Assembly: GCA_033439795.1 (NCBI GenBank)
Contig: JAUTDP010000009.1
Span: 2,976,001-3,040,000 of the forward strand
Direction of reading: 5' to 3'
Origin: Sordaria brevicollis
Lineage: Eukaryota; Ascomycota; Sordariomycetes; Sordariales; Sordariaceae
Length of the DNA stretch: 64,000 nt
In this document: positions 15,032 through 58,746 of the stretch, one piece after another
How positions within the stretch are numbered: the stretch's first letter is position 1
Layout of the letters: each line of letters opens with the position of its first letter
The notes under the pieces: model-generated
Seen by the model: only the letters and a program-made list of their open reading frames with translations
Told to the model about the DNA's origin: nothing
Databases searched by the model: none
Translations under genes and position numbers: made by a program

Positions 15032-15346
15032 TCAACGCATCTCATGCGCCTCCCCACGACTTCTCCTCCTGCTTCTTTGCCTCTCCCGTCGATACTTGCG
15101 CGCGCAACACTCGTACAGGCCCCAGAGCATCAAAGTCAACGCCACACCGGCCCCGAAGACGATGCCAATTATGGCACCCTGGCACAATCCGCCTCCACCG
15201 GAATTGCTGTCCCCGCCGACATCGCCAATCACTGGCAAGGAATCACGGGCTTTGGGCTGCTGGGCGTCTGTCGGTTCTTGAGGGTGGGCGGCGGAAAACC
15301 CGAGGAGGGAAAGGAGCATGAGGTGGTGTACCTGCATTGGGGTCAT
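15032..15346 (-). CDS. m1: small signal-peptide/single-TM protein, 104 aa
   Basis: Residues 1-20 form a hydrophobic leader ending SAA. A short Gly/Asp/Ser-rich ectodomain (about 21-57) follows, then one membrane span at about 58-78 (IIGIVFGAGVALTLMLWGLY), CC at its inner edge and a strongly basic tail (KYRRERQRSRRRSR). By the positive-inside rule the tail is cytoplasmic. ATG at 15346 is the first in frame before the leader. It is the first of eleven genes pointing the same way, each with its own spacer. No known family was recognised; a cell-surface location is inferred from layout. Confidence 0.7.
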   Translation of the reverse strand: MTPMQVHHLMLLSLLGFSAAHPQEPTDAQQPKARDSLPVIGDVGGDSNSGGGGLCQGAIIGIVFGAGVALTLMLWGLYECCARKYRRERQRSRRRSRGEAHEMR

Positions 15347-15687
15347 GGTGTAAGTTTTTTTTGTGCTTGTATGTGCGTTGGTGATATGCGTTTAACTGGC
15401 CTGGCCGAAGAAAAAAGAAGCCCGACATTCAAACCAGAGTGTACAGCGATACTTGTACCCCTGGAACCCTTACTGGCCTGGGTGCAGCCATGATCCAGCA
15501 TCAAGGCCCTCAACATCCAGTGGCACAGAAAGAGTCCAAACCAACAAACGGATCTCTCTTCCATTTGGCCCTTCTGCATTGAATTCTCGGTGATCGTCCT
15601 GGGGAAATTCCTCACCTACAGCGCCAACACAGCTTCCAAAACCCAGGCTTGAAACCAACTCCCCTTCGTCCCCTACCAGGTACATTA

Positions 15688-15984
15688 CTACTCCTCATGC
15701 CCCCCACCCCTCCTCCTCCTCGGGATGGCAGTAAACTCAAACTCCTGCGGTTCTGGAGTCGTGACACGGTTGTGGTTATTCTGAAACACGATCCTGTAGA
15801 AGCCCCATGCCAGCCAGGTCATGATGGAGACTACGAGAATGTAGATGGCGATGGTTGCTGGGTCGTGCATACTTTTGCGGAGTTGGTCGTTGTTGTTATT
15901 GGAGGTGGTGTTGTCGTTGTTGGTTGCTGTGGATAGATGGAAGAGGAGGAAGGGGAGGATGAAGAAGAGGTTGGGTTGGTGCAT
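15688..15984 (-). CDS. m2: small signal-peptide/single-TM protein, 98 aa
   Basis: The leader occupies 1-20 (FFILPFLLFHLSTA). It is followed by an Asn/Thr-rich segment of about 22 residues with potential N-glycosylation sites, a membrane span at about 44-63, and a tail with RRRR near the C-terminus. The span and its exit (TWLAWGFYRIV) closely match m3 (TWLCWGFYEVV), so the two are paralogues. The ectodomain is one of the shortest in the cluster. Confidence 0.72.
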   Translation of the reverse strand: MHQPNLFFILPFLLFHLSTATNNDNTTSNNNNDQLRKSMHDPATIAIYILVVSIMTWLAWGFYRIVFQNNHNRVTTPEPQEFEFTAIPRRRRGGGHEE

Positions 15985-16480
15985 CTTGTTGATGGTTCCA
16001 GGTGTTGTGATTGGAGTGGGTGAGGGATATAATGCAGTCTACCGACCTACAAAATGACGGGCACTGATATTGTTTATATCGGTCGACGGTCTATATCCAG
16101 GTCCAATGACCGAAGATACAGTTGTTTAGGAGAGGAAGCTAGATAATAGCAGGTTTCAAGGTCATTAGGGCATGCAAGATCTGAGGATCTTTGCCTGGCT
16201 TTGTGTTCTGGGGAAAGATACTTGTCTTAGTGATGGCAAGTTGACAACGACTTCCCTCATGCTTGTTCCTCACGGCATTGATCAAGAGTCCAGCAAGAGA
16301 GATTATAGTCTCTTAAAGGGTTTACAGTGATGCCAAAAGTACGAACACAAGGCTGAGCTATCTCCCAACTTCCCTCACCTACCAAGTGCTTGCAAGAACA
16401 TCCAAGATCAATATTCCCCTTACCACCACCTTCTAGCAATTACCTACTCATGCATCTTCCACAAAGAATCTTGTAATTGT

Positions 16481-16801
16481 TCAAGGCCTATGCCCATAAA
16501 GTAACCTCGTCCTCTCACTAGGCCGCATCGCCCCTTCATACTCCCTATCAAACTCCCTTTCTTCACGTCGCCAGCGGATATCGTCCATAACTACTTCGTA
16601 GAACCCCCAGCAGAGCCAAGTGGCGATGGTCACGACTATAATGAACTTGATGATGGTTTCTCTGTCTGGGGGAGGGTGGCCGAAGAGTTTTTGGACCCAG
16701 TCGGTGGGGTGGGTGGTGTTGTTGGGGGTGGGTTGAGCGAGGATTGGGGAGAAGAGGGTTAAGAGGGTGGGGAGTGGTGAGGAACGGTGGTTGGGGGGCA
16801 T
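16481..16801 (-). CDS. m3: small signal-peptide/single-TM protein, 106 aa
   Basis: The ORF is open upstream to 16885, but the Met at 16801 is chosen because it directly precedes the leader (PLPTLLTLFSPILAQP, cleavage after LAQ). The ectodomain (about 24-49) contains NNT and a WVQKLFG segment. The membrane span is at about 50-71 (FIIVVTIATWLCWGFY), followed by a charged tail (RWRREEREFDREYEG). It is a paralogue of m2 from the span outward. No catalytic motif is present. Confidence 0.7.
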   Translation of the reverse strand: MPPNHRSSPLPTLLTLFSPILAQPTPNNTTHPTDWVQKLFGHPPPDRETIIKFIIVVTIATWLCWGFYEVVMDDIRWRREEREFDREYEGAMRPSERTRLLYGHRP

Positions 16802-17323
16802 TGTAAGCGATTTGATGTGTTGATATTGCGGAGTTGGAACTGGAATGCGCGAGAAAATTACGGGTAAAGCCAAGCGAGAGGTCAAGAAAGCTTTATGGCT
16901 TCGAAGGGAAGAGGCTTGTTGGCACCATGTTTGACTACCATGATGGTGAGATGTGAGCGAGACAGCTATAAGTGACGAACACCGCGGTAATCCATGGCCT
17001 AGGTTGATTGATCAGTACGCATTTGATGAATAATAATGGAACCCCGAAGTAGGTATGTGTCTGCTATTCAATTAATGAGAGCCCGGCTCATGCCCATAAA
17101 TCTACCTACTACCTAGTACCTACGATACCCGCCCGACTAGCAAACCCATCGTGCCTTAACAGCTAAGTAAGGCCAACAACCAAGCCCACCCATCTCCTCT
17201 TTGTCTAGCTAGTTATCGACCACTCTGCTTCATCACATCCTCCACCTCCTGTACCCCTCAATACCAAAGCCACTATCCCTACCACCCGTCCACCCCCCCC
17301 TTGCGCCACCACTGTTGTACCTA

Positions 17324-17758
17324 CTAATACCCCTCCATCACCTCCCCCTTCTTCGCCTTCCTATGACACCTCCAGCAACAAGCTATGCTCCCAAAAAGAA
17401 TCACAGCTCCCACCAGTCCCACCGCAACTTTGCCGATAATAGCAAAGATTTGCTCAATTTGCACAGCCAGCTCGGTAACAGTTTGTTCTCCACCTGCTGG
17501 AGGAGGAGAAGGAGGCGGGTTGGCGCGGGCTTGATGACCGTTGTTGTTGGTTTTGGGCTTTGTGACTCTGTGGACGGCGTAGGAAGTGCCGGTGTCGGCG
17601 CGGCGCTTGTGGGAGTTGGTGGCGCCGGGGATGGGGCCGGGGAAGTAGATTGTTGTGCGGTCTTGGAGGACTTTGTTGTCGGCTCTGGGGAGGGCGGTGG
17701 CGAGGGAGGTGCCGAGGAGGAGGGAGAGGGTGGAGAGGAGGTGGAGGTGGAGGCGCAT
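17324..17758 (-). CDS. m4: signal-peptide/single-TM protein with TTIYFPG motif, 144 aa
   Basis: The leader at 1-22 ends LATALP, followed at 35-41 by TTIYFPG, a motif shared with m13 (TTIYYPG) and loosely with m18 (STMYFPR). A KRR dibasic site occurs at 51-53 and a Pro-rich stalk at 81-90. The membrane span is at about 111-128, followed by CCWRCHRKAKK. A GC-rich overlapping ORF of 199 codons on the same strand (17401-18000) has no leader or span and is taken as a shadow. The role is unknown. Confidence 0.7.
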   Translation of the reverse strand: MRLHLHLLSTLSLLLGTSLATALPRADNKVLQDRTTIYFPGPIPGATNSHKRRADTGTSYAVHRVTKPKTNNNGHQARANPPPSPPPAGGEQTVTELAVQIEQIFAIIGKVAVGLVGAVILFGSIACCWRCHRKAKKGEVMEGY

Positions 17759-18719
17759 GGTGGGTGGGAGAGGATGGGGAAGACCGGCTTCTCTGTGACG
17801 CTGTTAGTGAGGTTGTAGGAAGGAAAGGTGTGGATGAGACGGTCAACGCCGAGAAGTAAAGGGTTCCTATCCGAATCTGACGAAAGCTCTGTTGAAGGAT
17901 CCGGGCAAGATTGGCCTCCTTGACCCAAACTCATGGCGGTCTTATATCGGCCACCGTCCTGTTTCCCGTTAGAGCTACCGCTTTGCGCAAGGGGAAACAA
18001 GAGGAACCGTGTTTCACGGGGGTTAAATCTTTATGTATGGACAAGTGATGATGAGCAAAGGCTCTTGTTCTATAGTTATCTGTCGGTTCGAAATCATAGT
18101 GGCCTCCTTGTGCCATATTTGGCTTCTGTTGAGCACGGGAAGGACCTGCCGTGGACCTTTTGACCGTGAGGCCCATTGTCCGGCATGCCGTGAGAATGTC
18201 AATGTAAGCCGGTAATCGTAGTGTTGGTGGTGGAAAGTCCGTGTTTTGGAGAACAAGTTGGGGAGTTGAAAGACACGGGAGACAGAAGGGCATTGTCATG
18301 ACCCGGCCGATCCTGGAGTTGTTCCGGGGAGCGGATGGGCAAAAAGTACCAAAGACTCGGCAGGCACCATTGAACTTCCCAACCATGCGAAAGAAAGTAG
18401 CTCAAAAATAGGCATCTACGAAACTCCTAACAGTTTAAAGCAGAAAACCCCAATAGGATTGTTATACTACGCTAAGATGCTACAAGTGCTAAAACAGAAC
18501 GCCTCCCTTGCATTAACAATTACCACCGTTGGTCGGGTCACCCGCCCGCACCGCGCACATACCAGCTGCACTCTTTGTCATCAACATTTCAAAACTTCCA
18601 ACGACATCTCTTTCTTTGCCCATTCTCTTCCCATTTCCTCTTCATCCAACCAACACCATCTCTCCCGCTCCATTGTCACCACCACAACTTCTGACCTACC
18701 GATCGACTGAGCCACGCTC

Positions 18720-19580
18720 CTACCCACCCCCAGGCCACTTCGGCCTCCCACTCTCCTTTGCCAACAACCCGCCCGCCCCGAGCAAGACCAAGACACCGCA
18801 CAACACCCCGACCGCAATCCAGATACCTACCTTTCCCCCAGCCTTGGGGCCACCACCACCGGCCGGCGAAGATCCAGAAGATAATCCGGATCCACTAGAT
18901 CCAGTTTCCTCCTTTGCGATGTGAGGGATGATACTCTGGTTTGTTTGGGTCCTGTGGTCTAGGTCTAGCATACTGCGCTTCCTCCTTCCATTTACCTTTC
19001 TGCTGCGCCGTCGGGCGGTCGTAAGCGACGGGCTGGAGGATTGCATGTTGTTGGCCTGGTCGGTGGGAAATGGGCGCCAAGATCTCGGAGTCCGGGCGGG
19101 GGGCTCCCTGCGGGGACTTCGGTCCTTGGTACGGGACCGGGCCGGCGTAACGTCGCTGGGGGGGAGCCTGCTGGGAGGGGGCCATGGGGTTCTGCGGCGG
19201 AGCGCGGTAGGGTCGTTGGGGGCGAGCGGGGTTCTTGGGTGGGATTTGGGGTGGACGGTGCTGCTGCTTGGGCGGAGGCTGAGGCTTAGGCTGAGGTTTA
19301 GGCTGGTACTTCTTGTCCTTGGGAGGTGGTCGCATGTTGCAAGAGGGAACTCTTCTAGGCTCGCCCTTCCTCTGGAAGGTGTCGACTCGCTCTCCAAAAA
19401 CGTCGTTGAGCTTGAAGGGGGTGCGAGAGCCGTTGCGTTTCTGTTGTCGTGCCTGTTTTCGTGCAGCCTTGGCTCTGGGACCTTTGGTGCAATGCCGGCC
19501 TTTGCAGCTGTCGATGCGAAAGCAACCAAGATTAAGATGGAGATGCATATTGATGGTGATGGAAGGATTGATGGGCGCAT
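18720..19580 (-). CDS. m5: larger signal-peptide/single-TM protein, 286 aa
   Basis: The leader at 1-28 contains ISILILVAFASTAAKA. Then comes a long low-complexity ectodomain rich in Ser, Pro, Arg and Thr, including dibasic KR/RR sites, a Gly/Ser spacer, and a span near 253-275 (IWIAVGVLCGVLVLLGAGGLL) with a short basic tail. Leader and span lie in one uninterrupted frame, which supports this frame over a second minus-strand frame of 217 codons (18895-19548, Pro/Gln/Lys-rich) that is also open. It is about twice the usual length for the cluster. Confidence 0.6.
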   Translation of the reverse strand: MRPSILPSPSICISILILVAFASTAAKAGIAPKVPEPRLHENRHDNRNATALAPPSSSTTFLESESTPSRGRASLEEFPLATCDHLPRTRSTSLNLSLSLSLRPSSSTVHPKSHPRTPLAPNDPTALRRRTPWPPPSRLPPSDVTPARSRTKDRSPRREPPARTPRSWRPFPTDQANNMQSSSPSLTTARRRSRKVNGRRKRSMLDLDHRTQTNQSIIPHIAKEETGSSGSGLSSGSSPAGGGGPKAGGKVGIWIAVGVLCGVLVLLGAGGLLAKESGRPKWPGGG

Positions 19581-20065
19581 CGGGAATAGCGTCTCGAGGT
19601 GAGTGGTTTCTTGTTGGTGGCTTATATTTCCTTTCCAGTGCTAGCGGACGCCTTCTCGACAGCGGGTTCTTTGGTTAAAAACGGATATACAATAGTCAAA
19701 GGGTTCTTGGTACGTGTTTTCTTCAAGTCTTCTGGTGAAGCACACTACGGGCTAAAACACACAATGACTTGTTAAGGTTACGGAACTGATCAATGTGCTG
19801 CAGCCGTGTATCAGGTCTCGTTTTTGTCTCTTTCCGCCCCAGTTCCAAATAACAAGAAGCTTGCATTGTTCTATCAAACCCATTGTCAGACAACCCTCGA
19901 CCATCACATATTCCGCACCGCACAAGATCCCCACCCGAGCCGAACCCCGTTCCGGCGGTCATCGTACCGGACATGGAACCCTTCCACTTTGAAACCAAAG
20001 ACCACATATCGAGCATACAAACTGCGGCACTCCGGGCCTCCATCATTGGGATTCACCGTACCCGT

Positions 20066-20590
20066 TCATTTAGGTCGAGGTATGTTCGCCGGCATCTTTG
20101 CTTTGTGGTGCTTTCTGGCAACATAGAAGCCGAGTCCCCCAACGACCAAAACAGCGATGAGACATCCAACCCCAGTTAACACTTCTGTCTTGCCTACTGC
20201 TCTTTTTTGGAACCCTTCGACCTTGCTGCGCCTATCTTCCAAGTTCCCCGCTGGTGTTTTCTTGGTCAAGGTTCTATGTACGCTGTCCCAAGGTCCAGTG
20301 AGAATCCGAGGAGTACGTTCGACGACTGGAGTATTCGGCATGAGCGGTGCATGCAATGATTTGCCGACTCGAGGTTGTTCCTCGTCCTTCTTTGTCAAAA
20401 TGGACGCCGTGGAGCGAGCCGTGGGACTTGGAGTAGTGCTGAAGAATGACGCGTGTTCCGAGTGGACGGGCTCCCTGGGAATGTGGACTGAAGTTGTCGT
20501 CGTCGATGTCGGAATCTTCGGTAGGGCCAGCCCAGCACCGAAGTGAAGAAAGCCGCATGCTAATACTGAGAGGAAAGAAGCAGGGTGCAT
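20066..20590 (-). CDS. m6: signal-peptide/single-TM protein, 174 aa
   Basis: The leader is 1-23 (LLHFGAGLALP type: here FLHFGAGLALP). The ectodomain carries IPREPVHSEHASFF, TTPSPT and LTKKDEE, all with counterparts in m8 and partly m7, so m6-m8 are a paralogous trio. QKR lies just ahead of the membrane span (about 134-157), which is followed by ARKHHKAK. A Kex2-type cut at KR would release nearly the whole ectodomain; that is inference. Confidence 0.75.
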   Translation of the reverse strand: MHPASFLSVLACGFLHFGAGLALPKIPTSTTTTSVHIPREPVHSEHASFFSTTPSPTARSTASILTKKDEEQPRVGKSLHAPLMPNTPVVERTPRILTGPWDSVHRTLTKKTPAGNLEDRRSKVEGFQKRAVGKTEVLTGVGCLIAVLVVGGLGFYVARKHHKAKMPANIPRPK

Positions 20591-21517
20591 TGTGGTGAAA
20601 GGCTGGAAGCCGAATGGCTGTGTTTTGATGGTTCAATGAAGGATTGAGGCTCGGTCACCCAAGCGAGCGGCTGATGTAGGTGTGTGCGGAAGAGCTGGCG
20701 GTCTCATCCAGATGAGGGTCATAAGGCCAGCCAGTACATGACAGCCTGTGCTACGTCCGTTACTTATAACACTCTAAAGTGCGCCATTCCAAGTCTTCAG
20801 CTCTCGAAATGAAGGACAAACTGTCGCTGGGAGAAGTGAGTCCTCCGTGAAAGGGCAACATTGCCGCGCGCGAAGGTTGGGTGGCAGATCAGGACTTGAG
20901 AAAGGTAAGTGGCGTCCTTCTCGTTTTTCTGTCCATTCTCCTGTTCTTTCTTTACCGTCTTAGCGCCCATCCCGCACCAACAGTCCACGAGCGAGGTTGG
21001 CTAGTTGCCAACGACCAACACGTTCAACCGCTGGGACAAAGAAACAGCATTGGCGTTGGACGGCTCTTGCCCGGTAGATGCCTACGCCACGCAATTCCAC
21101 GCCCCTACTCTTGCGCCTCGAAAAGGCTTCGTGGAAAGGAAATCGTGGGCGGTCCATAATGAAAGGGATGTAACTACGGTCTAGTCGTGAACAGACTGAC
21201 ATGGAAATGCATCTCAATGTCTGTAAGGTCCTCAAGGGCATTAGGCTGTCTATACTGCCTCGTCTGTGATTTGGGGATGCTCACAACGGCCACGGAGAAT
21301 AACTGACCAAATTTAACATTCAATTTCTCAAAGACCGACCTCACCCCCCTCCCCGTTTACTGGGTTAGGAGTTTACCCAATCACCACAGCACCCTCACCA
21401 AGTATCATGCCCAGCCCCTCCACCCTGAATTCCTCTAGTCAGAAACGCAATCCTCCTTCTCCCGTCGAACAACAAAGCAACAACCTAACCCTGTGTACCC
21501 GGCTCTGCCGCAGACGG

Positions 21518-22042
21518 CTATTTAGCTCTACACTTTCTAGTGGAACGTTCCACAACAAAAACCAGGAGAATGAGGCCAACAATGCCCGCAACAATATATC
21601 CACAAAGTATCCCGATAGTTTTTGCAGAGGACCCCCTTCTCTCGATACCTCTGACCACAATGTCGTCTTTCCCTTCTCCATCAGTACTATCCCTAGCGAC
21701 ATGTGTAGTTGTTTCAGTTGACACGGACTCGTGGAGCCCATTGCCATGATGTTCGGCGTCCTCATCGGTTTCAGATCTGCTAATGTGGTCTGTCGAGACA
21801 TGCTCTGTGGCGGAGAGCCAGGGCTCGTCCGGTGAACTAGACGGCGCGGCAGACTCATTGTTGACGAGGTCATCTTCTTCTCTCTTGACCAAAGCCAGTT
21901 TGGCAGGATAAGACTGTTTGTGGATGGGCTCTCTGAGGCTGAGAGCAAGGCTCGAGGTTACCGGTGGCCTTGGTAGGGCTAGACCAACACCGAAGTGGAG
22001 CAAGGCGCTTGCTACAAAATGGAGTAAAGATGATGGCCGCAT
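21518..22042 (-). CDS. m7: signal-peptide/single-TM protein, 174 aa
   Basis: ATG at 22042 is preferred to the in-frame upstream Met at 22096 because the leader (SSLLHFVASALLHFGVGLALP) starts there. LREPIHK resembles m6 REPVHS. The ectodomain is acidic and Ser-rich with VKREEDD and IERRG, the latter close to the span. The membrane span is at about 142-163 (GYIVAGIVGLILLVFVV), and the tail ERSTRKCRAK is basic. It is a paralogue of m6 and m8. Confidence 0.75.
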   Translation of the reverse strand: MRPSSLLHFVASALLHFGVGLALPRPPVTSSLALSLREPIHKQSYPAKLALVKREEDDLVNNESAAPSSSPDEPWLSATEHVSTDHISRSETDEDAEHHGNGLHESVSTETTTHVARDSTDGEGKDDIVVRGIERRGSSAKTIGILCGYIVAGIVGLILLVFVVERSTRKCRAK

Positions 22043-22915
22043 CGTGGATAAGATGTGGTAGAATGTGATTTTGGCTTTAGTTTGTAGCAAGTGCAACTCT
22101 GTGTCACTTGGATAATAATAATGATGGTAAGATCTTCAAACCGGAGGGCTAGTGCCTCCTCTCCTGTCTTATTCCATTCGATATGGGCAACATGTCCATA
22201 CTCGGTGGAAGACCAAAGCAAGACGCGGTAACCTACACCATGGCGGTTAGACGTTAGTTGCCATCCCCTACTGGAACGTTGAGGTTAGCGCGCGGGAGAT
22301 GTATAGCAAGCATCTTAACACACAATGCACTTGTGGGAACTTCCTTTTTCCACCGGAGGATGCCGAGAGCGTGTGGAAGAGCCAACGCCCAACAGAACAA
22401 CACCCAACAAACCAACGACTCTTAGAACAAAACGAGTCCATGGATTCATTTGCACTACGCAGACCGGCGTAGGTGCACTCCGCCCTTTAGCAACCTGAGA
22501 AGTCCTTCCGCACTAGAACACTCGGCCGATCATACGTGTCTGACTTGGACACCTTCCGAGTAGTTAGTGGAAGTTTTCCGCACCGCAATCCTTCCACTCC
22601 TTGGTGATATCACATCTTGAGAACAGTGGGAGAATTGGATACCTTGAGAATACAAGTCCAGGGGAGTCCTCCTTAATCTATTTCCTTACTAAAGACTACC
22701 TCCCTATCTTAGTGAGATATCCCGTCCACCACCTACCTCCCTGTTCGAACTACAAAACTCCTCAAATCCAGCTACCGCCCATTCCTGCCCCCATTACTAC
22801 GGTAGTGGTCTCTAAACCTGACTACCCCACGGGGCTGATTGCACACCCAGTACATGCTCCTCCCCATACCACTCCTCCGTCCTAGCACAAGTTAAAAACG
22901 GGCATTCCCTTCCCT

Positions 22916-23428
22916 TCATGCCTCTGCCTTTGCCTCTGCCTTTACCTCTGCCTCTGCCTCTGCCTCTGCCTCTGCCTTTGCCTGTTCCCGTTCCCGTTTC
23001 TCACTGGCCCGCCTCCATTTCCTAAAAACCATCTTCATGATACGACCTTTCCAAACAATATAGCCAATCAAGCCTAAAACTAGCGCACCGGCAAGGCAAA
23101 TCCCCGCGAGTGGGACAGGTGGTATTTCTCTCTTTCCAATGTGACTAGTGCCGCGTGCTGAGGTGTCGAATGTGCTGGAGGGTGTTCGAGGGTGATCTTT
23201 GAGTCCTGGAGAGGTTCCTTCTTCGGTCTTTTTTGTCAATGCGGAAGAGCTGGTACTCGGTGTGGGACTTGGAGTGGTGATGAACGTGGGTTCGTGTGCT
23301 GAGTGAATGAGTACTCGGGCCATGAGGAGTGCAGTGGTCGTGGTTGGGGAGTTTGGTAGGGCTTGTACCCCAGTGTTGAAGTGCAGCACAGCACATATTA
23401 AGAGGGAGAGCAGGGTATTGGCGCGCAT
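22916..23428 (-). CDS. m8: signal-peptide/single-TM protein with AE-repeat tail, 170 aa
   Basis: ATG at 23428 begins the leader (LLSLLICAVLHFNTGVQALP). Ectodomain segments LIHSAHEP, ITTPSPT and LTKKTEEG match m6. GKREIPP lies directly before the span (about 108-128, AGICLAGALVLGLIGYIVW). The cytoplasmic tail is unusual: a basic helix (KWRRASEKREREQ) followed by AEAEAEAE/VKAEAKAEA, encoded by a CTCTGC/CTTTGC hexanucleotide array at 22920-22985 that probably varies in copy number. Confidence 0.75.
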   Translation of the reverse strand: MRANTLLSLLICAVLHFNTGVQALPNSPTTTTALLMARVLIHSAHEPTFITTPSPTPSTSSSALTKKTEEGTSPGLKDHPRTPSSTFDTSARGTSHIGKREIPPVPLAGICLAGALVLGLIGYIVWKGRIMKMVFRKWRRASEKREREQAKAEAEAEAEAEVKAEAKAEA

Positions 23429-24382
23429 TGTGATTAGGATGTAGTCGAGTAAATGGCTGGAGATAGTACAAGGCTCGGAAGCGGCGCGATACAAATAGCT
23501 ACAAGTCGGAGCAATACTGGTTTGATGATGGTGATGAAGAGAAGAGGCCAGCTGACATCCCCTTTGCAGCCATCGGCATAGCTCTTATACCATTTGGAAT
23601 TGGAACCACGGTTTAGAGGTTGCACCAAATCTCACAGACCGGTAATATGGTTGCTCTACGAAGTCCGTAAACACCAGCGCGCGGCAGAAGTGTACTGAGG
23701 TTATTGAAACATCCGAAGACAAAACAATTACGGGCAGTAAGTAATATGCCGCTTGTCCATTGACTCCATTCACCATTCCCCTCCTTCTTTTGAACCGGGA
23801 CACCTTTAGCGCCCATCCGCTGACCAAGAGAACACACAGAGCGCTTTTAGCACAGCCCACGACCAACAGTCGACGGTCCATCCCGTCCTTAGACAAAAGA
23901 AAGTCTCATTTGTCTTGGTCGAAGCCCAAGAACTTCCGCCACACACTCTGGGTCATGTCCTCTGTACTCTGCATGAGATTTGTCCCCCTTAGCCCGAAAG
24001 GGCGTCCGGGACATGTGGGTGGACGGGACCGGGATCTAGAATCACTAACGGGTAAAGAAAGATTAAAACGAGTGGACATGATCAGCTTTTAATTAACAGG
24101 CAAGTGTTTCAAGACCAGCAATCTTACTAACTAAGCTGTGGAGCTCCAACTCCCTCTTCACGACAACATCCATTACTGGCTTCAAACCATTCACCTCACA
24201 AGCAGCTCCTAATAACAGTTTACGACTAATACCTCTTCCTCCTCCTCGCTACATGCGCCGGGGCCAGCCGGCTCTCCCTTCCCGAATTATCTACCTACTG
24301 ACGTGCGTCCTACACCACCCTTACCCCAAAATCTCATCCCTTCGGATCTTGGTTACCCCATTGACCTGTTCCTAGGTTAAGT

Positions 24383-25024: not shown

Positions 25025-25828
25025 TTTGAGACGGCTGTGATGTCTTTGAGACAGTGTTTGACTCTGCGGAACTGACGGGGGTGCTTTTGATGACGGTGAG
25101 GTGGGTTTTCTGCTTGAAGGTAACGCTCTTTCTCGCTCCGTTGGGCATGATGGTGATCTTCCAGACAGACTCCTTGGCAGGAACGAGCTCTTGCTTATAA
25201 CTTCGTTGGAACATGACTGCTAAAATGGCTGATGGGGACGGCGATACCAACACGTTCAAAGTGGAAGAAGCTAAGCGCGCGGCGAAAGAATACGAAGTGA
25301 GGTATGGAGAGGAAAAATGGCGTCAACGAAGTCGAGAGTTGGAGGATATTACTTCAAGCGCCGGCACTTTTTCGACGTCCTGGACGCCCATTAACCCAAT
25401 CTCCAGGTCAATGAATCACAGCAGTCTGTTGGTTGTCCCACTGCTATTTTCGGCTCAACGGTGAAGCTTTCATCGAGCCAACAGGGGATTCATTGTGCCT
25501 AAAGCACCAACGCCATGGATCCCCTTTCAACGATAAAGCTTATTGTTCACAACCCCACGCCCAACGTGCCGCACATAAGCGCTTACACACCAGTATCCCG
25601 TTCAAAGACAGTTACGGGCTTACGGCTCTGGAAGAATGGAGAGCAAAAGTGGATTGTCCCATTCATCAGCATTCGTCCTACTACTGCTAGCACTAACACC
25701 ATAGTCCATCTCCGTATCCTAACCCTGCACTAAGCCAACCCAAACCCTCCTTCGATGCATCACCCGTTCTTCACCCCGTCCCGGGTTCAGCTATTATCCT
25801 CCCACAACCCCGTATGATCCATCAAGAT

Positions 25829-28600: not shown

Positions 28601-28619
28601 ACGCATCTATGCCTTTGGC

Positions 28620-35567: not shown

Positions 35568-35579
35568 CGCTTCTGTTTT

Positions 35580-36860: not shown

Positions 36861-36865
36861 GTGTG

Positions 36866-38700: not shown

Positions 38701-38713
38701 TCTGCACAACAAA

Positions 38714-46120: not shown

Positions 46121-46168
46121 TGGCCGGTCTTGTGGGCAATGCTCGACATGCCACCAACGGGTTTGTTG

Positions 46169-49100: not shown

Positions 49101-52100
49101 TATATATTATACGTCTTTTCCGTAATTATAAGTATAATAACCCGTCCCCCCGCTTTTATTAGGTTGAAAAATTGCGTTAAAAGTTTAAGAAAGCCGTTTA
49201 GAACGCTAAAAAGGATTTTATCGATAATATTATTGGATTAATTAAGGACAATAAGGATATTTTTTATATTATTATATAATATAAATTTAGGGACTAATTA
49301 AAAATTTTACCCCTTATTATAAACGGAAAAACGTTCGTCGAATTAATTAAAAAGGTTAAAGTATTCTATAAAATTATTTTCGAACGGATAAGTAAAACGG
49401 ATAATTTAAATACCGGCTAAATTTTTATTACCCTAATATATTAAATACTTTAAGAAATTAATATTTATATCAATAAAGTATATAAAATTTTCTATAATAT
49501 TAATAATATTTTACCCGGGGCCGATAGTATTATAATATAAATATTAAAGGCTATTTAAAAATCGATTAAAGAACCTATATATTATTTATATTAAGGTTAC
49601 GTATTTTAAAATTATTACCCTAAAATTTTCTAAAAGGTAAAAATTATTATAATCCTTAAATTTAGAAGAGATAAATTAATAATTAAAAGCTAACGCCTAA
49701 TTTCCCTCCTCTTTTATTTAAATAAAAGGATTAAATATTTAATTAACCGTAGAATAATATAATTTACAGTTAAATATAGGGTATTTAACCCTTGATAGGT
49801 AGGAACTTTATTTAAAAGGTCCGCTATTAATATTATCGGTTCCGTCGTTTATAATATTAAAAATTTCCTAAAATACGGGTTATTCGCTACGTTAATTACC
49901 TTCGACGTAAAGGGCGCTTTTAATACTATTTTAATTAATTATTTAATTTTATATTTAAAGGAATCAAATTAACCGGCTTACGTAGTCTAATAAATAAAAT
50001 CTTTTATATTAAAAAGAATAATTAATATCCGCTACCTTAACGTTATAATATTAATAGAAAGCTTAAAATACAAACTTCTTTAAAAATCCTTTATTTTATT
50101 TATCTTCTACTTCTTTTATATTAAACCGGTATATTATTTTAATAATAAAATTAAATATTTCGAATATACCGACAATTATACGATTTTAATTTCGGGCCCT
50201 ACTTTAAAGGAAATAGCCCAATAAACGTAGGAAAAATTCGATTATATAATTAAATAGGGTTCGGTTAATACTATTAAATTTTCTTTAAAAAAAATAAAAA
50301 TTTAATTCTTTTCGAAAAATTATACTACCGTCCCCCCCCTTCTATTTAATACGTAGGGGTAATAATAGAGGCCTAGCCGGCTATATATTAATTCGGAATT
50401 TAATTCTATAATAAATTTAATTAAAAAAATTATATCGAATATTAATTCGCGTCGGCTAAATAAGTCGTATAATATATTAATAGGCTTAATAGGGTATATA
50501 AAAACGCCCCGCCTAAATTTATAATTAAAATTATAAAAATTATTATCTTCTTTAAAGCCCTTTTTAATTTTAAAATTTAATAGTCCAACTATAAAAAATA
50601 TAATTAAATCCGTAAAAATAAGGAATTTCTTTTAATCGGTAATAATTTAAATAATTAAATTAAAAAAAATCCAAATAATTATTAATTTAGCCGTTAAATT
50701 AACGTTTTTAATTTAGCGTATTATATACTTTATAATCCTTTACTACGAAATTAACTTCCCCCCTATATTATTTCTCTTCGAAACCGTTTACTACTATTAT
50801 ACCGTTTACTTTTTATTCCTAAATTTAAATTACCTATCAATTTAGCGAATAGAATAGGATAGGAGGATATTACGAAACCTTCCTAGGAAATTTACGACCT
50901 TATAAATTATTTTTTAATTTACTTTATTTATTCCTTAATTTAATTTCTAAATTCCAATTTATAATGGAATAACGTATTTACCCTCTATTATATTCTCTAA
51001 AAAAAAAGCCGCCGTAGAATTCGAAAATTAATTCTTTTAATTTTCCCTTTTAAAAATAGTAATATATATCGATAAATTTATATTAATTAAATAAATTGGT
51101 GCGGAAAATTATATCGAAGATTTAAAGGCGGATAACGAATTTAATAATAAAGCCGTAAAATTCGGTTATATTATTTTTAAGAGGAAGGAAGAATTTTATT
51201 ATAATTTCGAATAATTTAAATAAATGGAAATCTTTAACGTAAAAATAGAAGGGGTTAAATACGGCTTTAAAGCGGTTATAATAACTTTCCTATACGGTTA
51301 TATTAACTTTATTACAATTTATTTCGATAATATTTCGGTAATTCGAAACCTCCGAAATATACTTTCCCTATCGTTATAATTAATATTTAAAAAATTTTAA
51401 CGGATAATCCTATTTTATTATAATAAAATAAAAGTAAAATAAATCCCCGGATATATAGGAATTATTAATAATAAAATTATTAACGAATTAATGAAATTTA
51501 GGATTATTGGAAGTAAAATAATTAACCTTAAAATAATTATATTAATTTATTTTAAATATATAATTAAAATAAAAATATAACGGGACTTCCGGACGTAATA
51601 AATTAAAAATACCCCCCCCTCCTATTAAAACTTTAATTTTAAAACTTCGTTAAAATTTAATAAAAAATTCGAATTTAACCGTAGTACTTTATATTACTTT
51701 TTAGCTGTAAAGTCCGACTATAGCGATTTTAAAAATTATTACGAACGTTTCAAATACGAAAACGTAGTAATAAAATACTATTATAATAATTGGAAAACTT
51801 TATATTATATTTTTTATTATTATAAAAGATACGCTATATCCCCTTTCCTTCCTAAAGAAACTATTATATTTAAAAATTTAATATTAATATTAGGAATTTT
51901 TTAAAAACGTTTCGTAGCGAGGGTATAAATTTTATATTTTTTTTCGTAAATTTATATAAGGAGGGATATTCGCTAAATTTTCTAATAATAATATATAAAT
52001 AACGGAAGAACTATAAATAGCTTTTCTACGTTTTTAAAGGAAAAGGGGGTAATAATCGGTAAGGAGGTTAATAACGGTATTAATATAATAAAAGATTAAT

Positions 52101-52550
52101 TAAATTAAAAAATATACCGGATCTAACGTAAGGAAAGGGTATTAAAAGCGCTTTTAAACGAAGGGGAGGAAGAAGAGGAGGATTTTAAGGAGGAAGAAGA
52201 AGAGGAAGATTTTAAAGAAGAAAGGTAATCGGGGGTAAATAACCCTCAGTCTACGGTTTTTACTCTTATAGGAATTTAATTAAAATATTAGGCCGCGTTT
52301 ACGCAATAGGTAGTACGTAACCTAGTAGGATCGTAAAATTATATAATTTGCCCTCAGGTTTTTCCAGGGCGCTACTATATATAAATCCTCTCCTTACTTG
52401 TGTATATAACTCTATAAATACGCTGCTGTGGCACGTCTCATGCCCTTCGGGAGGCGGAAGCAGACGTTAACAATAACAACAACAACAACAACAACCACTT
52501 AAATAAGTATAAGTAAGTATGACCTCTTACTTGACTTGTTTCTAGCGCTG
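46169..52550. mobile_element. hAT-like MITE, split by a LINE insertion
   Basis: CAGCGCCAGAAACAAGTCAA at 46169 and TTGACTTGTTTCTAGCGCTG ending at 52550 are the ends of the same family as 34439-34796, here in inverse orientation. Flanks GTTTGTTG (46161-46168) and GTTTATTG (52551-52558) are an 8-bp duplication with one transition. Without the LINE the MITE is about 380 bp. Confidence 0.8.
46509..52494 (+). mobile_element. RIPped LINE (Tad-like non-LTR retrotransposon)
   Basis: It is inserted in the MITE with a 16-17-bp duplication, CCACTTAAATAAGTATA at 46493-46509 and 52495-52511, the variable-length duplication expected of target-primed insertion. The 3' end carries a short AAC/CAA-type tail (about 52468-52494). 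Ignoring RIP stops, plus-strand remnants show endonuclease motif GDFNA (48611-48625), reverse transcriptase FDVKGAFNT (49901-49927) and YTDN (about 50166, from the YxDD box), and an RNase H-like start (VIYIDKF) near 51055. Endonuclease, RT and RNase H in this order fit the fungal Tad1 group. The last 300 bp are less mutated. It is not functional. Confidence 0.8.
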
Positions 52551-52873
52551 GTTTATTGGGGCATCCTCGGTTGAGATGAAAGAACCACGACCAACAAACG
52601 CAACGACGACGAGAACCAGCGGCGACTCTTGAGAGTCGTCCATGGGAAATCCTAACACGAACAACCTTTCTCGCGTCCTTCGCAAGTAGAGAAAGGTGTC
52701 GCGAACTTGCCGTCGCACAACACGTCCGCGCTCCGTTGATTCAGGACATTGAGAATACTCGGTAACATTCGCATCCCACGATACCCCATCACCTCTCACT
52801 GACTAACCCATATTTGCTCACCAGCATAGCCTTTCGGAGAAAACTCAGAGATTTGCAGCAAGAAAAACACACG

Positions 52874-53308
52874 ATGCACCCGCAGCATCTCCTCCGCTTC
52901 GCTCTCACCCTCCTCCTTGGAGCCGTGATCACCTCGGCTTTCGTCGTACCCGACCCCTTCACGGGCCTAGGAGCAACTCCGTCAATCTACGAAAGGCGCG
53001 CTAATACACGCAACATTGTCCAGCCGCCTCCTACTGCACCGGCTTCTACGATGTACTTCCCCCGTCAAGAGCCCGTACGCATCGAGCAAGATCATAACAG
53101 CGACGGTCAGGACAAGTACACCAGCACAACGGACGGCCACTTCGAAGCAGGGAGGAGCCTTCAGCGTGGAGACGTGGCAGGCATGCCGATGGCAGTTTTC
53201 GTCGCCCTTGTCACCTTTGGGGCCGTTTCTTTTATTCTATTCACGTACATCATGATCATGCGCTTCGTATGCAATGGTCGGACGGCGGCTGTCCGACACT
53301 ACAGTTGA
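52874..53308 (+). CDS. m18: signal-peptide/single-TM protein, 144 aa
   Basis: The Met at 52874 begins the leader (HLLRFALTLLLGAVITSAFV), followed by VPDPF. STMYFPRQEP resembles the TTIYFPG motif of m4 and m13. The span is at about 103-130 (MAVFVALVTFGAVSFILFTYIMIMRFV), with a short basic tail. An upstream in-frame Met at 52814 would add 20 polar residues and bury the leader. It lies alone between the LINE block and the minus-strand group m19-m22. Confidence 0.72.
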   Translation: MHPQHLLRFALTLLLGAVITSAFVVPDPFTGLGATPSIYERRANTRNIVQPPPTAPASTMYFPRQEPVRIEQDHNSDGQDKYTSTTDGHFEAGRSLQRGDVAGMPMAVFVALVTFGAVSFILFTYIMIMRFVCNGRTAAVRHYS

Positions 53309-53940
53309 TAGGGAGAGGGAGAGGTCTTTCAAAAGGGTGTTAGGAGGCCAGGAGGGAACCAAGTAGACATTGCAAAGCCGGCGATGGAGGGTTGCCAGGC
53401 CCAATAGAAGCACCGTTGACTACCATCTAGGCTCAGAAAACTGTTGTTGAAGGAAGAAAGAATGACATGGCCGGTAAAATAGACATTCTATCATATTTTC
53501 TTTGGTTGGTTTTCGTTCGGTTGTCAAAGAGATTGTTCCACTTATCATATTTCAACAACTGAGGTGCGATTTTGACTGTGGGCACGGGTAACGTGTTGGT
53601 GGATGTTAGTGTCAATGCGCTGTAACCGCATCAATCAGTAGCGGCAGCTAACTGACATGACTAATCCTTGCCCCGAACCTCGCAGTAAAGCTCGCCTCTA
53701 TCTGCCGGGACAAGTAGTGCGGGAGTGCAAGTGATAGTGCTAGCCCCCAGAATACGTGTGAATAGTGACTACGCCTTAACAACTCCAGGATGCCAAGCCT
53801 TAACCAAATAGAACCCGATGAGGAAATATTCAACGCCAAGGTCCAGCCCTTTACGAACCAGCTCAACTCAGAAACATCACCACCTAATGACCTTCCGATC
53901 CTTCCAACCTCATAGACTAGGTCCCTTTGGAAACTCAAAA

Positions 53941-54219: not shown

Positions 54220-54240
54220 TCTCTCTCTCGCCCCGAATCA

Positions 54241-54973
54241 TTAATTATCAAACATCCAAAATACTGCCTTGCAAGCAAGAAGCGCTGAAACAACCACACA
54301 TATGAGAAAAACAGCGCATATAGGGCCAACAATGATACCCGCTAGCTCAGCATCACTGAAACAGTACTTCCCAGGGGGGCATATAGGTTTTTCGTAAAAT
54401 ATCATGTTGCCGATCTTGAGAGAGCCATCTTCGAGGATTTGCATCTCGCTGAGGCATTTCAGACCTGAGGGGGTTATGTTGGGAGAGGGTAGGGTGGGTA
54501 GAGTGGGGATAGGGTCTAACGGTGGGCGCGGGGGAGGTGTCAGCTTGGGTTTGGGAGTTTGTCCACTGGGAAATAAAGGAGAGGATAGGGAAGGAAGCGA
54601 GGAGATGGGGGGGGGGGGACGAACCTCTTTTGTTGCTGTTTCGTAGTTTGTGGTCCACGTCTAACGTGGGATCACTCTCTCCTTGATGCGTATCCCGGGC
54701 TCTCAGACTAGAGGTAACGTCTTTGGCGTGCCTTTGGTCGAAGTCATCGTATGAACGGCCACGGCCCAGGTAACGGGGGGTACCCGTCAAGGTGTTTGTG
54801 ACCGGCGAGACCTCGTCTCGTCCGTGAAGGCCTCTGGTCACAGCAGGCTCGGAGCTTGAATCATCGCGGGCGAGAATTCGGTACTCTCTCGGAATCGGTG
54901 GCGTGATGATCGCTGCCACCGAGACGCCCAGAAAGGCTAACAAAAGCATTCGAGGAATAATTCTTGTCCGCAT
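54241..54973 (-). CDS. m19: signal-peptide/single-TM protein, 2 exons, 190 aa
   Basis: Exon 1 54973-54625, intron 54624-54465 (weak GTTCGT donor, GCTGAC branch, CTCAG acceptor, 160 nt, phase 1), exon 2 54464-54241. Exon 1 encodes the leader (IIPRMLLLAFLGVSVAAI) and a polar ectodomain with several Arg-Asp and SNKRG sites; exon 2 encodes a Cys-containing segment (CLSEM, CPPGKYC) and the membrane span (IIVGPICAVFLICVVVSALL) with a very short tail. The joined length is an exact codon multiple. The intron holds a C13 run, which may be a slippage site. Confidence 0.62.
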
Positions 54974-55507
54974 TCTGTCAATCTTGATGGTTAGAAACCG
55001 AGCAGAAGAAGATTGAAAAGGAAAATATTCGGGGGTTGAAGACTCCTACCATAATTCGCTTTCTTTTTCCACCCCATCTTGGATCAAGTCGTTGGTCCCA
55101 TCGACTGTGTCCATCTTCCTCTACTTTGTCGCAAACTGGTACACTCTTGAATACCATTCCGCCAACTGCGAATTTCCCGCGGCGTTACCCACCTCAGGCA
55201 GAACAGTCGCTTTGTTGTACTGCTCGCCGGTCCATCTTTCGCACCACCAACAAATCTGTTGGCTGCTCCCATAATGTATACCTGAAAGTGACAAAGGGAC
55301 CCCGGTCCCAGGCTCGTCTCTTTGTGACTGTTCCGGCCCCCTGGACCGCTGGACGCTTGACCTTCTTGGCGTTTTCCGGTCGAGATTGAATTGTTGGACT
55401 CAAAAATGGCAAAACTGCACAAGCGAAAGTGACAATACCCACCTGAAATAAGAGCAAAAGAAAGAAAGAACAAAAAAGGCAAAAAATTGAGTGCTGTCAA
55501 ATGTTGA

Positions 55508-55606
55508 ACCACTGCCGGGAGTCGAACCACGGACGTGTCTGTTTCACCCCGCCTGTGTTGCAGGTCGTTGCTTCTGTCACATGTGCTGCCGTTACACCAC
55601 TGGGCC
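55508..55606 (-). tRNA. tRNA-like pol III unit 6
   Basis: The A box TGGTGTAACGG and B box GGTTCGACTCC are good. A 5-bp stem ATGTG/CACGT stands where the anticodon stem should be, enclosing a 40-nt loop with a CCTG/CAGG hairpin, as if an intron were present, but the base at position 33 is C. The T stem needs a bulged T and the acceptor pairs poorly. CTATATA lies about 45 bp upstream and two T6 runs follow (complement of 55472-55486). Confidence 0.45.
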
Positions 55607-56179
55607 ATTCGCCAGCTAGTTGTTGGTGAAAGACCCCTTCGCAGCCAACCCTATATACCCCGTTGAAAGGTTTTCGTGGAGGCTTAGCGGATATCATTGA
55701 TGACACGGAGGGAATGTCGTTGAAAATGGAGTCGGCATCGGCCGTTAAGCGATGATCGCGCTTGTTTGGCCAATCAGGGGACTCGTACAGTGTCGTGAAC
55801 ACCCCTGGCCGAATGCCCCCCGCAGTCTTGACATATTGGGCAAAACCGTCAACGTCCATTCGAGTTTCACAACCTCTGATGACCGTACAACGAACACTCA
55901 GATCGGTTCGACCTAGATCGCACCTCCAAAAGCTGAATCTATACTCTATATTAATAAAAAGGTTGCCGACGTCCAAAACCCCGAGACCCCTCCCCATTTG
56001 CGTAACGCCCTTCTATGACCTATCCGTGCCACGTCCTGAATGCTGTTAGTCCAACCCCTAATCCCCGCCCACAACAGCGCATCTACACTAACAGCTCTTA
56101 CCCTGCCCTGCCACCCCTCCAATCACCGCATCACCGCATCTCCATCCTCAACACCAACCTCTCCACCCACAACCCACCT

Positions 56180-56822
56180 TTAACAATCACCATCACAACA
56201 ACAACAACAACAACACTCCCCACAACAATCCCCCATACACCCTGCGAGGCTACTATCATAAGGATAACATCCCAACGTCCAGGTACCACCGTAATTCCCT
56301 CCACCACCACAACCACCACAATTACAGCACGAAGCCAGACTGTCTTTGAATTTCTCTTGCCTCTCTTCGTCCCATCCTCCGCAGGCGAGGCCGTTGGTTA
56401 CCCAGGCTATCCAGACTGAGAAAAGGAGGAGGATAGGAAGAAAAATGGCGAGGGCGATGGTTTTGGCGTGGGATTTGGCGGATTGGGTTAGTTTGGAGGT
56501 GGTTGAGGTCGGGGTGGGTGTTGGTGTGGAGGTGGAGGTGGCGAGGGCTAGCCAGGGTTTTTTGAGGGTGGTTATGGTTGGGGTTGATGTTGATGTTGAT
56601 GTTGATGTTGAGGTCGGTGACGACGTCGCTGTTCGTGCTTGAAGAATCCTGTCATCCGATCTTTCCTCGCCTTGCCTCGACTCATCGCCGTCCAAGATTA
56701 CGTGGGAACGCTTCTTCTCGATGTCACTCGTGTCATGCCTAATGAGGGGGACAGGTACTATTGAAACTCAAAAACGTTAGCACTACTATTCCTATCTCGG
56801 TTGGCTGACCTATACCATCCAT
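56180..56822 (-). CDS. m20: single-TM protein with Cys-cluster tail, about 194 aa
   Basis: The body (56757-56180) has a Thr/Ser/Pro-rich repeat region (STSTSTST, STPTPTPTST), one membrane span (IALAIFLPILLLFSVWIAWV) and a Gly/Cys-rich C-terminus ending CCGECCCCCCCDGDC. No ATG precedes it in the same exon. An intron 56815-56758 (GTATAG, GTGCTAAC branch, TAG) would join it in frame to a 7-base first exon at 56822-56816; this start is tentative. There is no cleavable leader, as in m12. The Cys tail recalls membrane-attached Cys-rich stress proteins in general pattern only. Confidence 0.5.
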
Positions 56823-56913
56823 CAGGTTCCATGTCCATCTTCGGGCTCATTATCTCTTTTTTTTTCCCTTCTCAAGCATACCCGGAGGCATTCCGAATCA
56901 TATCAAGACTCCA

Positions 56914-57381
56914 CTAGTAGTAGTAGTTCCTCCTCCTCCTGTTACTCATCTCAATCTCCTCAGTCTGCGCCCGCATGCGTCCGACTTTTCTGAGGCCAAT
57001 CCAAACACCAACGACGGCCGCCAGACCAACCAAGCCCAGGATTGAGTATCCCACAATCTCGCCCGTGTTGGGGTGTTTGTTTTTCTTATCATCATCACTC
57101 GGCGGATGGGGTGGGAGGGGGTCGTGATAAGGCTGCCCGTCTTGTTGTTCTTGTCTTTTTGCCAGTTGGAGAGAGGTGTTCTATTCCTCGTCCTTCTGGG
57201 TTATAGCGACGTTTGTCTTACCTTCTTGGTTGACGCCGACTGTTGGGCTAGCCGTTTGGCGTGAGATTTCGTTGGAAAGAGGTTGATCTCGAGGAGCGTT
57301 TGGATCTCTGAGGGCTGATGCGGCTGCAAGGCCAAGGAGGAAGGTTGAGACCAAGAAGTGCCGAAGAAGATGTGGTTTCAT
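56914..57381 (-). CDS. m21: signal-peptide/single-TM protein, intron-containing
   Basis: Exon 1 (57381-57222) encodes the leader (LLRHFLVSTFLLGLAAASAL) and RDPNAPRDQPLS, ending at a strong donor GTAAGA in phase 1. The 3' exon, same frame, holds HPNTGEIVGYS, one span (ILGLVGLAAVVGVWIGL) and a basic tail ending NRRRRNYYY with stop at 56914. The best-looking acceptor (CAG at 57133) is out of phase; AAG at 57141 keeps frame, so the exact junction is uncertain. Leader matches m7, m15 and m16. Confidence 0.6.
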
Positions 57382-58012
57382 GGTGGTTGAAGCTCGTTTG
57401 CAATAAAGATACTTTAATAAGGGTGTGTTCTAAATGACGATGATGAGCTACATCATGGTTGGGAGCTTGGCGGCGAGATGATCTACTTAACCAACGGACT
57501 TCTTTGGTCGCACGAGAAAGGAATGACGGGACGTGGACATGGTACGTTCCTTCTTCCTTGCATTTGAACAAAGGACATTGAGGAAGGAACCAACAACCCC
57601 AAAGCAAGCAGGGTGCTATGTCGCATGGGCGGCTGGTTTGTTTCAGTTGTCCTTCGAGTCGGCACATTCGATTGTTCGAGTTCATTGCCCACTCGGCAGG
57701 TGTAAAAAGTGCATCGTTAACGACTGCCAAAAGAAGGCGAAAACAGACGACTTTCGTTCTATGAACGCGACCTAGCGGCTTCTTCATTATATCATTTACC
57801 TCTTGCACCGCGTCACACAATAACCATTGTCAACGCATCACACTCTCGGAAACTACTCCATGGCACACCCAATATCCAAACCTCGGTATGTCAATGCCAT
57901 TGTTCATCATATTCCAAATAGCCGCTCTTACCTCTATCTACCTTCTCACACGGTTTCCAACACATCCCCCCTTACACATTTTTTCCGGGCAGTTACCTTA
58001 CTTTCCCTCTTC

Positions 58013-58042
58013 TACCATCGATCCATCGATCCATCCATCCAT
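58013..58042. repeat. CATC tetranucleotide run
   Basis: Consecutive CATC/GATC variants (ATCGATCCATCGATCCATCC and following) lie in the spacer beside m22. Confidence 0.8.
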
Positions 58043-58083
58043 TTTTCCCAACCCCCAGTCCTCTTCCAGTGACCCCGTCTCAA

Positions 58084-58746
58084 TCACCACACAGACCTCC
58101 CCCCACCCCTCCTCTCCCTCCTCCTTTGATGTCTCATCTCATACTCCTCATCACTCCTTACCCGGTCCGCGTGTCTAGCTCCTCTATCCGTAAACACCTT
58201 CCAGATCCCCCAGATTCCAAAGATACCCGCCATGACGCCTCCGATGATGCCTCCTATCTCGCCGCCGCTGAGACCTCCACCACCACCGCTGCCGTTGTTG
58301 TTGTTGTTTGATGGTGGCTCCTCAATGGTCTCGGTGGGGAGGGGGTCGTGGGTGACGTGGGGGTGGTGTGGTTGTTGGGGTTCTTGGGGTGGTTCTTGGG
58401 GTGGTGGTTGGTTGGGTGCTTCGGGGTCGATGGGGGGTGCTGTTTGGATTGGGGTGTCTTGTTTTATTTCTATGGGTAGGTCTTTCCCTTCTTGTTCATC
58501 TCCGGTGAGATGTCCATCTTCGGGGGCTGGTACGGGGTTGTCGGCTGCTAGTGCGCTTGCTAGATGGATTATTGCACTGGCAGTATAGTCTGAGGCCTGG
58601 CCTGCTGAAGCCTCTGTCGTGTTGATGGCTGAGTCTATGGAAACGGATACGGGCTGGTCTGAAGGCGCCGGGGGTTTGATGACGGATGCGATTGAGCTTC
58701 CGACTAGTGCGGAGAGCGTAAGGGAGAGAACCAGATGTTGCTTCAT
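58084..58746 (-). CDS. m22: signal-peptide/single-TM protein, 220 aa
   Basis: The leader at 1-20 (LVLSLTLSALVGSSIAS) is followed by VIKPPAPSDQPVS. The ectodomain is acidic, then Pro/Gln/His-rich (PPPQEPPQEPQQPHHPH), then an Asn/Gly spacer. The membrane span at about 160-184 (IGGIIGGVMAGIFGIWGIW) is followed by a very basic tail (RHQRRRERRGGGR). It is the last recognised member before the RIP block at the right edge. Confidence 0.72.
   Translation of the reverse strand: MKQHLVLSLTLSALVGSSIASVIKPPAPSDQPVSVSIDSAINTTEASAGQASDYTASAIIHLASALAADNPVPAPEDGHLTGDEQEGKDLPIEIKQDTPIQTAPPIDPEAPNQPPPQEPPQEPQQPHHPHVTHDPLPTETIEEPPSNNNNNGSGGGGGLSGGEIGGIIGGVMAGIFGIWGIWKVFTDRGARHADRVRSDEEYEMRHQRRRERRGGGRSVW

Follow-up and report, generated by a model that had tools for sequence, protein, structure and literature searches.

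The window, by which we mean the whole 64,000-nucleotide stretch analyzed here, holds an array of 22 re-identified genes (m1–m22) between positions 15032 and 58746, equivalent to 2991032–3034746 on contig C27. The orientation runs given in the preliminary description were recovered, with m1–m11 (15032–27210) and m12 (37230–37580) on the minus strand, m13–m18 on the plus strand (38714–53308) and m19–m22 on the minus strand (54241–58746). At the left edge, m1 (15032–15346, 104 aa) encodes a leader, a single span and a basic tail. A leader and a single span are likewise encoded by m2 (15688–15984, 98 aa), m3 (16481–16801, 106 aa), m4 (17324–17758, 144 aa; its leader resembles that of m22), m5 (18720–19580, 286 aa), m6 (20066–20590, 174 aa), m7 (21518–22042, 174 aa), m8 (22916–23428, 170 aa) and m9 (24383–25024, 213 aa). 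The m5 model is uncertain; two minus-strand frames are open there, and codon use favors the other one. The run closes with the spliced gene m10 (25829–26285), which has a GPI-like end, and m11 (26824–27210, 128 aa), with a leader and a GPI-like hydrophobic C-terminus. The isolated m12 has an N-terminal span, is without a leader and falls outside the family type. Leader and single span recur on the plus strand in m13 (38714–39244, 176 aa), m14 (39829–40248, 139 aa, in an ORF that opens at 39727), m18 (52874–53308, 144 aa) and the spliced genes m15 (41415–41977), m16 (42904–43633) and m17 (44459–45219), and on the minus strand in the spliced genes m19 (54241–54973) and m21 (56914–57381). Between these last two and the right edge, where m22 (58084–58746, 220 aa) again combines leader, single span and basic tail, m20 (56180–56767) is an open frame with one span, in which neither a start codon nor a leader was found.

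Introns were modeled in m10 (26101–26176, between exon 1 at 26177–26285 and exon 2 at 25829–26100), m15 (41539–41609), m16 (43034–43151), m17 (44802–44899), m19 (54465–54624) and m21 (57150–57221, with a low splice score). All six best-scored introns are in phase 1 and each follows a leader-bearing exon; the splice score favored a G before GT, which counts against this regularity as a sign of kinship. For m16 a phase-2 alternative scores equally, and two acceptors were picked by hand, that of m10 having been ranked third by the splice-scoring script and that of m19 being absent from its four printed candidates. Codon use ranks the model frame first among all six for only 11 of the 22 genes, and codon z reaches at least 2.5 in 15.

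Kyte-Doolittle windows assigned a hydrophobic N-terminal leader to 20 of the 22 proteins, m12 and m20 being the two exceptions already named in the preliminary description. Its claim of a C-terminal anchor was also borne out by these windows: 18 of the 20 leader-bearing proteins have one membrane span, and m10 and m11 have a GPI-like end. AlphaFold gave only a weak model of m6 lacking its first Met (mean pLDDT 51.7), with helices at residues 2–20 and 134–163 and low confidence throughout residues 22–131 save one; a structure search with this low-confidence model gave no useful match (best E 3.6). The ectodomains are cysteine-poor, as had been described, Cys accounting for 1.0% of the 1819 residues that make up the ectodomains of 19 proteins. 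No known family had been recognised, and none of the 11 members scanned (m4–m9, m13, m14, m18 and m22, with m6 minus its first Met, and m20) scored above a Pfam-A curated cut-off. The match of m20 to Psg1 reached 17.2 bits against a cut-off of 30.1, and a Pfam scan of 28 of the window's frames yielded no domain reaching a curated cut-off.

The density of this topology, said earlier to exceed chance, does so by a wide measure. In GC-balanced 1 kb bins, with the remainder of 264 kb and 30 kb of contig C11 as controls, we counted 15 leader-plus-one-span ORFs in 38 kb of cluster bins, where 2.0 were expected from the 10 found in 190 kb of control bins (one-sided p = 1.3e-6). One of the 15, ORF 18928+, is an antisense artefact; with it dropped, the 14 remaining cluster ORFs give p = 4.6e-6. 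A first-order Markov null produced a mean of 0.1 such ORFs in 20 runs. Because the observed density exceeds both the control sequence and the Markov null, chance ORFs were ruled out as the source of the array.

Leaders had been called the best conserved part, and pairwise scoring against full shuffles agrees: z exceeds 3 in 46 of 190 leader pairs, compared with 11 of 190 for ectodomains, 8 of 190 for spans and 1 of 136 for tails. The mean nearest-neighbor score of the leaders is 50.0, against 31.7 (sd 1.45) in zone-preserving shuffles, none of 300 scoring as high; with m6 and m8 removed it is 45.2 against 31.6. For 12 of the 20 leaders the closeness to another cluster leader surpasses that attained by any of six control leaders from the same genome, whereas the other eight (m1, m2, m3, m5, m10, m11, m13 and m17) score 28–41, in the range of the control leaders (29–45). 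Compared as sets, cluster and control leaders differ only at p = 0.035, two of the six controls being satellite genes. When 437 leader-like ATG 30-mers in 264 kb were ranked by closeness to a cluster leader, and two readings from internal Met codons (in m1 and m19) were omitted, cluster genes took the first 12 places and the next three formed one satellite array, the third of them tied with m11.

The suggestion of tandem duplication held for part of the set. Five related groups have pair z of at least 5 against blockwise shuffles (m6-m7-m8, m2-m3, m10-m11, m7-m15-m16-m21 and m4-m22), m2-m3 reaching 9.3, and 16 of 231 pairs exceed z 4. Whole proteins pair in m2-m3, m10-m11 and, more weakly, m14-m17, despite the control-range leaders of m2, m3, m10, m11 and m17. 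For most ectodomains, spans and tails no relationship could be established, and blastn among the gene copies found no DNA-level match at 1e-4. In own-genome searches with m3, m6, m11, m13, m15 and m22, m6 retrieved m8 and m7, m22 retrieved m1 (E 7.8e-4), m11 retrieved m10 and m3 retrieved m2; m13 and m15 found no relative in their own genome. Relatives were confined to the array except for one C11 match of m22 (E 9.8e-8), which covers the Gly-rich span and the Arg/Ser tail. The C11 frame, itself one of the ten control ORFs, has a weak leader (2.16), and we judged the match to be mainly one of composition.

The AT islands show the signature of repeat-induced point mutation (RIP), with indices of 1.14–1.22 and 0.14–0.20, against 0.64–0.85 and 1.12–1.21 in the gene blocks. 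In the gene pairs compared, pS exceeds pN in 11 of 11. This is no evidence of constraint, because 73 to 100 of every 100 shuffled codon sequences give the same result, and the inference of constraint was dropped. The comparison of pS with pN is indistinguishable from the shuffled controls in 9 of 10 pairs; m10-m11 alone stands out (1 of 100).

Lys-Arg is the signal for Kex2. In 19 ectodomains (m5, m12 and m20 left out) we counted 14 Lys-Arg pairs where 5.8 were expected, a number attained in a fraction of 0.0005 of shuffles, while the reversed Arg-Lys occurs 4 times against 5.9 expected. Lys-Lys is likewise in excess (11 against 4.5 expected). Lys-Arg is present in 11 of the 19 proteins and absent from 8, at 0–2 per ectodomain. 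Judging from these sites, Kex2 probably cleaves the outer part of those 11 proteins during their passage through the Golgi.

Taken with the leader and pairing results, the layout leads us to favor, with somewhat more confidence than doubt, local tandem expansion of one family, or of a few related ones, whose members are short surface proteins with a single anchor, in a filamentous ascomycete marked by RIP. Their precursors would enter the secretory pathway through the leader, which has the family character in no fewer than 12 of the 20 members. The outer part, short, rich in Pro, Ser and Thr and cysteine-poor, is probably disordered, and the proteins would be held at the cell surface, their presumed location, by a single span near the C-terminus, followed by a short tail of mostly basic character, or, in m10 and m11, by a GPI anchor. 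RIP may help to keep the gene copies unlike. At a guess, the proteins most likely serve as a variable coat, or as a set of ligands, directed at other cells. Filamentous fungi fuse, mate and compete through surface contact, and the best known fungal recognition genes act intracellularly. Small anchored proteins encoded side by side, alike in their leaders and unlike in their outer parts, are natural candidates for surface identity, and the array may show how a gene family retains many copies in a RIP-marked genome.

The array could instead be a gene nursery, in which mostly unrelated young orphan genes occupy a permissive region between RIP islands and share the leader-plus-span layout since membrane proteins arise easily. 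We consider this possible, though clearly less probable. Most of the ectodomains, spans and tails show no kinship, eight leaders of the 20 score like the controls, m13 and m15 retrieved no relative in their own genome, m5, m12 and m20 are poor or atypical models, and constraint could not be demonstrated; but the zone-preserving leader test, the clear related groups, the phase-1 introns and a satellite array with similar leaders all speak against it. That satellite is a three-gene GPI-like array 75 kb to the left of the cluster, and two of its members, by eye, end like m10 and m11.

The first proposal, that the locus serves self/non-self recognition, mating or host interaction and is under diversifying selection, is unlikely, and none of our tests supported such a role. 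Like leaders joined to unlike exposed parts, the local arrays and a neighboring tandem family, likewise of single-pass proteins, would suit it, but pS/pN compared with shuffles gave no measurable selection signal in either direction. HET-domain matches, 124 in the genome, number two on C27 (at 2671287 and 3114257) and none within about 80 kb of m1–m22, the nearest lying ~80 kb to the right and ~320 kb to the left. Neurospora lineage-specific gene clusters occur with HET-domain genes and resemble the array in their few known domains, adjacent paralogues, large non-coding spaces and RIP (PMC10684091). They differ in that a single membrane layout dominates our array and no HET match lies within ~80 kb; the words 'transmembrane', 'membrane' and 'signal peptide' do not occur in the available text (PMC10684091). 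A HET-linked locus of the Neurospora kind is unsupported, the array not being interspersed with HET-domain genes.

Less probable still, and drawn by analogy, is a fungal counterpart of a venom-type architecture, akin to that of cone-snail toxin precursors. In this reading a leader exon of uniform type would be followed by a phase-1 intron, a Kex2 cleavage site and outer parts that are hypervariable but tethered to the membrane. The locus would then furnish a wide range of surface ligands, individually variable and released from the membrane, for recognition between cells, and RIP would drive new copies apart. Precursors of secreted peptides, whether Kex2-processed repeat proteins or RiPP precursors, are very improbable, for although the leader and the Lys-Arg excess would fit, the 19 ectodomains have at most two Lys-Arg each, an anchor follows, and 28 of the window's frames hold no Pfam domain above a curated cut-off. 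Kex2-processed repeat proteins (PMC7329392) have Lys-Arg sites in common with the array (11 of 19) and probably the leader (20 of 22, by hydropathy); the array proteins differ in having no more than two such sites and a membrane or GPI anchor. Msb2 and other signaling mucins (PMC3271078, PMC3491010) have the same order of outer part, one span and small cytoplasmic part, but the array proteins are far smaller and many copies stand side by side; no signaling-mucin Pfam match occurred in the 11 members scanned. In the literature, judged mostly by titles and abstract openings, we recognised no description of such an array.

As to nearness to a telomere, a feature of the Neurospora clusters, the array lies ~295 kb from the end of the 3329525-base contig C27, and TTAGGG arrays in the genome were found on C13 and C14 only. 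A gene flanking the array encodes a beta-glucosidase, for which a PDB search returned other beta-glucosidases. Upstream of the genes, ACCAACA precedes 14 of 20 against 4.2 expected (3.1e-6 before correction for 5381 heptamers), which we treat as only a lead because the controls were flank pieces instead of promoters. The octamer CCGCGCGC is present in 4 of 20 upstream regions where 0.2 would be expected (p 1.9e-5, uncorrected for the 8124 octamers); counted on either strand and assigned to genes from the sequence, its copies fall between 20840 and 25290, ~250–282 bases before the start codons of m6, m7, m8 and m9.

All 22 of the small surface-protein-like genes of the preliminary description (m1–m22, window 15032–58746) could be rebuilt, as 15 unspliced frames, six spliced genes (m10, m15, m16, m17, m19 and m21) and one frame lacking a start codon (m20). 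The topology described for them was borne out by hydropathy: 20 of the 22 carry a hydrophobic leader, followed by a single C-terminal membrane span in 18 and by a GPI-like end in two (m10 and m11). The eukaryotic genome holding them comprises 53.08 Mb in 27 contigs. In the window (C27:2976001–3040000), blocks of genes with balanced GC are separated by AT islands (about 2–13, 46–52 and 60–64 kb) of about 20–30% GC with strong RIP indices. Such RIP-marked islands and HET-domain matches, of which the whole genome has 124, are pointers to a filamentous ascomycete. Scanning GC-balanced bins for ORFs with a leader and one span, an assay that detects unspliced genes only, equally in cluster and control, yielded 15 in 38 kb of cluster versus 10 in a five-fold longer control of 190 kb (p = 1.3e-6). 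One of the 15 is antisense to m5, and with 14 ORFs p = 4.6e-6; Markov sequences gave a mean of 0.1. The dense array is real and was well described.

Under blockwise shuffles, 16 of 231 pairs of members reached z > 4, nine of them 5 or more. Most of the kinship signal sits in the leaders: region by region, z > 3 under full shuffles was obtained for 46/190 leader pairs, 11/190 ectodomain pairs, 8/190 span pairs and 1/136 tail pairs. Because signal peptides look alike anyway, a stricter zone-wise residue shuffle was applied. The leader nearest-neighbour mean was 50.0 versus 31.7 (sd 1.45), with 0 of 300 shuffles as high, and 45.2 versus 31.6 without m6 and m8. Six leaders from other genes of the genome, two of them from the satellite described below, scored 29–45 to the nearest cluster leader; 12 of the 20 cluster leaders lie above 45 and eight inside this control range, and the difference between cluster and control leaders reaches only p = 0.035. 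Best-scored introns are in phase 1 in all six spliced members, a count to be read with an equal phase-2 choice in m16, a splice score favouring G before GT and no known phase background for the genome. These data support a dense array of single-anchor proteins, part of its members akin; they do not support any particular recognition role.

Among 437 leader-like ATG 30-mers over 264 kb, two internal-Met readings left out, the closest 12 were all cluster genes. The next three form one satellite on the minus strand (start codons C27:2912430, 2914319 and 2915299), the third tied with m11; by eye, two of the three end in an RPG-type hydrophobic tail recalling m10 and m11. Own-genome searches with six of the 22 as queries connected m6 to m8 and m7, m11 to m10, m3 to m2, and m22 to m1 and a frame on another contig, C11 (9.8e-8); m15 and m13 found no relative. 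Apart from the C11 frame, nothing outside the window scored better than 0.0068 with these six queries.

A codon-use model trained on seven flanking frames (3945 codons) gave z ≥ 2.5 against shuffled bases for 15 of the 22 models, the model frame being the best of six in only 11. Lower values were obtained for m5, m6, m7, m8, m15, m19 (mis-joined in this test) and m20. For m6–m8, support as genes comes, in place of codon use, from protein-level likeness (m6 versus m8, E 1e-10) with no blastn match found among the three. In all 11 aligned pairs pS (0.60–0.81) exceeded pN (0.35–0.52). We rejected this as a sign of selection because shuffled codon sequences, under protein-guided alignment, reproduced it in 73–100 out of 100 runs; among ten pairs, only m10–m11 had a ratio that shuffling seldom produced (1 of 100). 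The comparison is evidence for neither purifying nor diversifying selection.

The outer parts (1819 residues) are 28.6% Pro, Ser and Thr and 1.0% Cys. They contain 14 Lys-Arg pairs versus 5.8 expected (reversed order, 4 versus 5.9). The Lys-Arg pairs are spread over 11 of the 19 proteins and lie 4–93 residues ahead of the span. Of the 17 span proteins counted, 14 have a net basic tail, and an AlphaFold model of m6, from a three-row alignment, shows helices for the leader and the span with a low-confidence stretch between them. As to function, we infer that a precursor would enter via its leader, that its outer part, rich in Pro, Ser and Thr and poor in Cys, would be held by one anchor, presumably at the surface, and that Kex2 might cleave this part. 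Shared control is possible, judging from CCGCGCGC, common to m6–m9 at 250–282 bases before the start codons (window 20840–25290), and ACCAACA, found upstream of 14 of 20 genes.

Directly left of the m genes, single-pass membrane proteins form another tandem family, with five places at C27:2968112–2978116 (window −7888 to 2116) and nine further matches elsewhere that are weaker or dispersed. Its outer part is of the C-TMT-YP-SW-GC type and its juxtamembrane motif of the SKAWIAG type; no kinship to the m genes was noticed. Direct repeats (82%) bracket the m1–m11 array at window 14708–14876 and 27662–27827 and occur at five places in the genome, four on C27. The m19–m22 block is flanked by repeats at 53592–53697 and 59311–59456 (the latter at three places in the genome), which correspond to adjoining halves, one inverted, of a single stretch at 69006–69267. 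A gene at 32782–35157, whose N-terminal part has polyQ and resembles a UIM and whose C-terminal part resembles RNase H (scores for RVT_3 and UIM just below cut-off), is apparently broken at 34478–34796 by a repeat with 84% identity to 46169–46509; a similar frame at −86361 to −84745 is without such a break. Intron-bearing tRNA-like genes lie at 987–1082 and 36865–36958, and ARAGORN types the former as Lys or Leu, varying with the settings.
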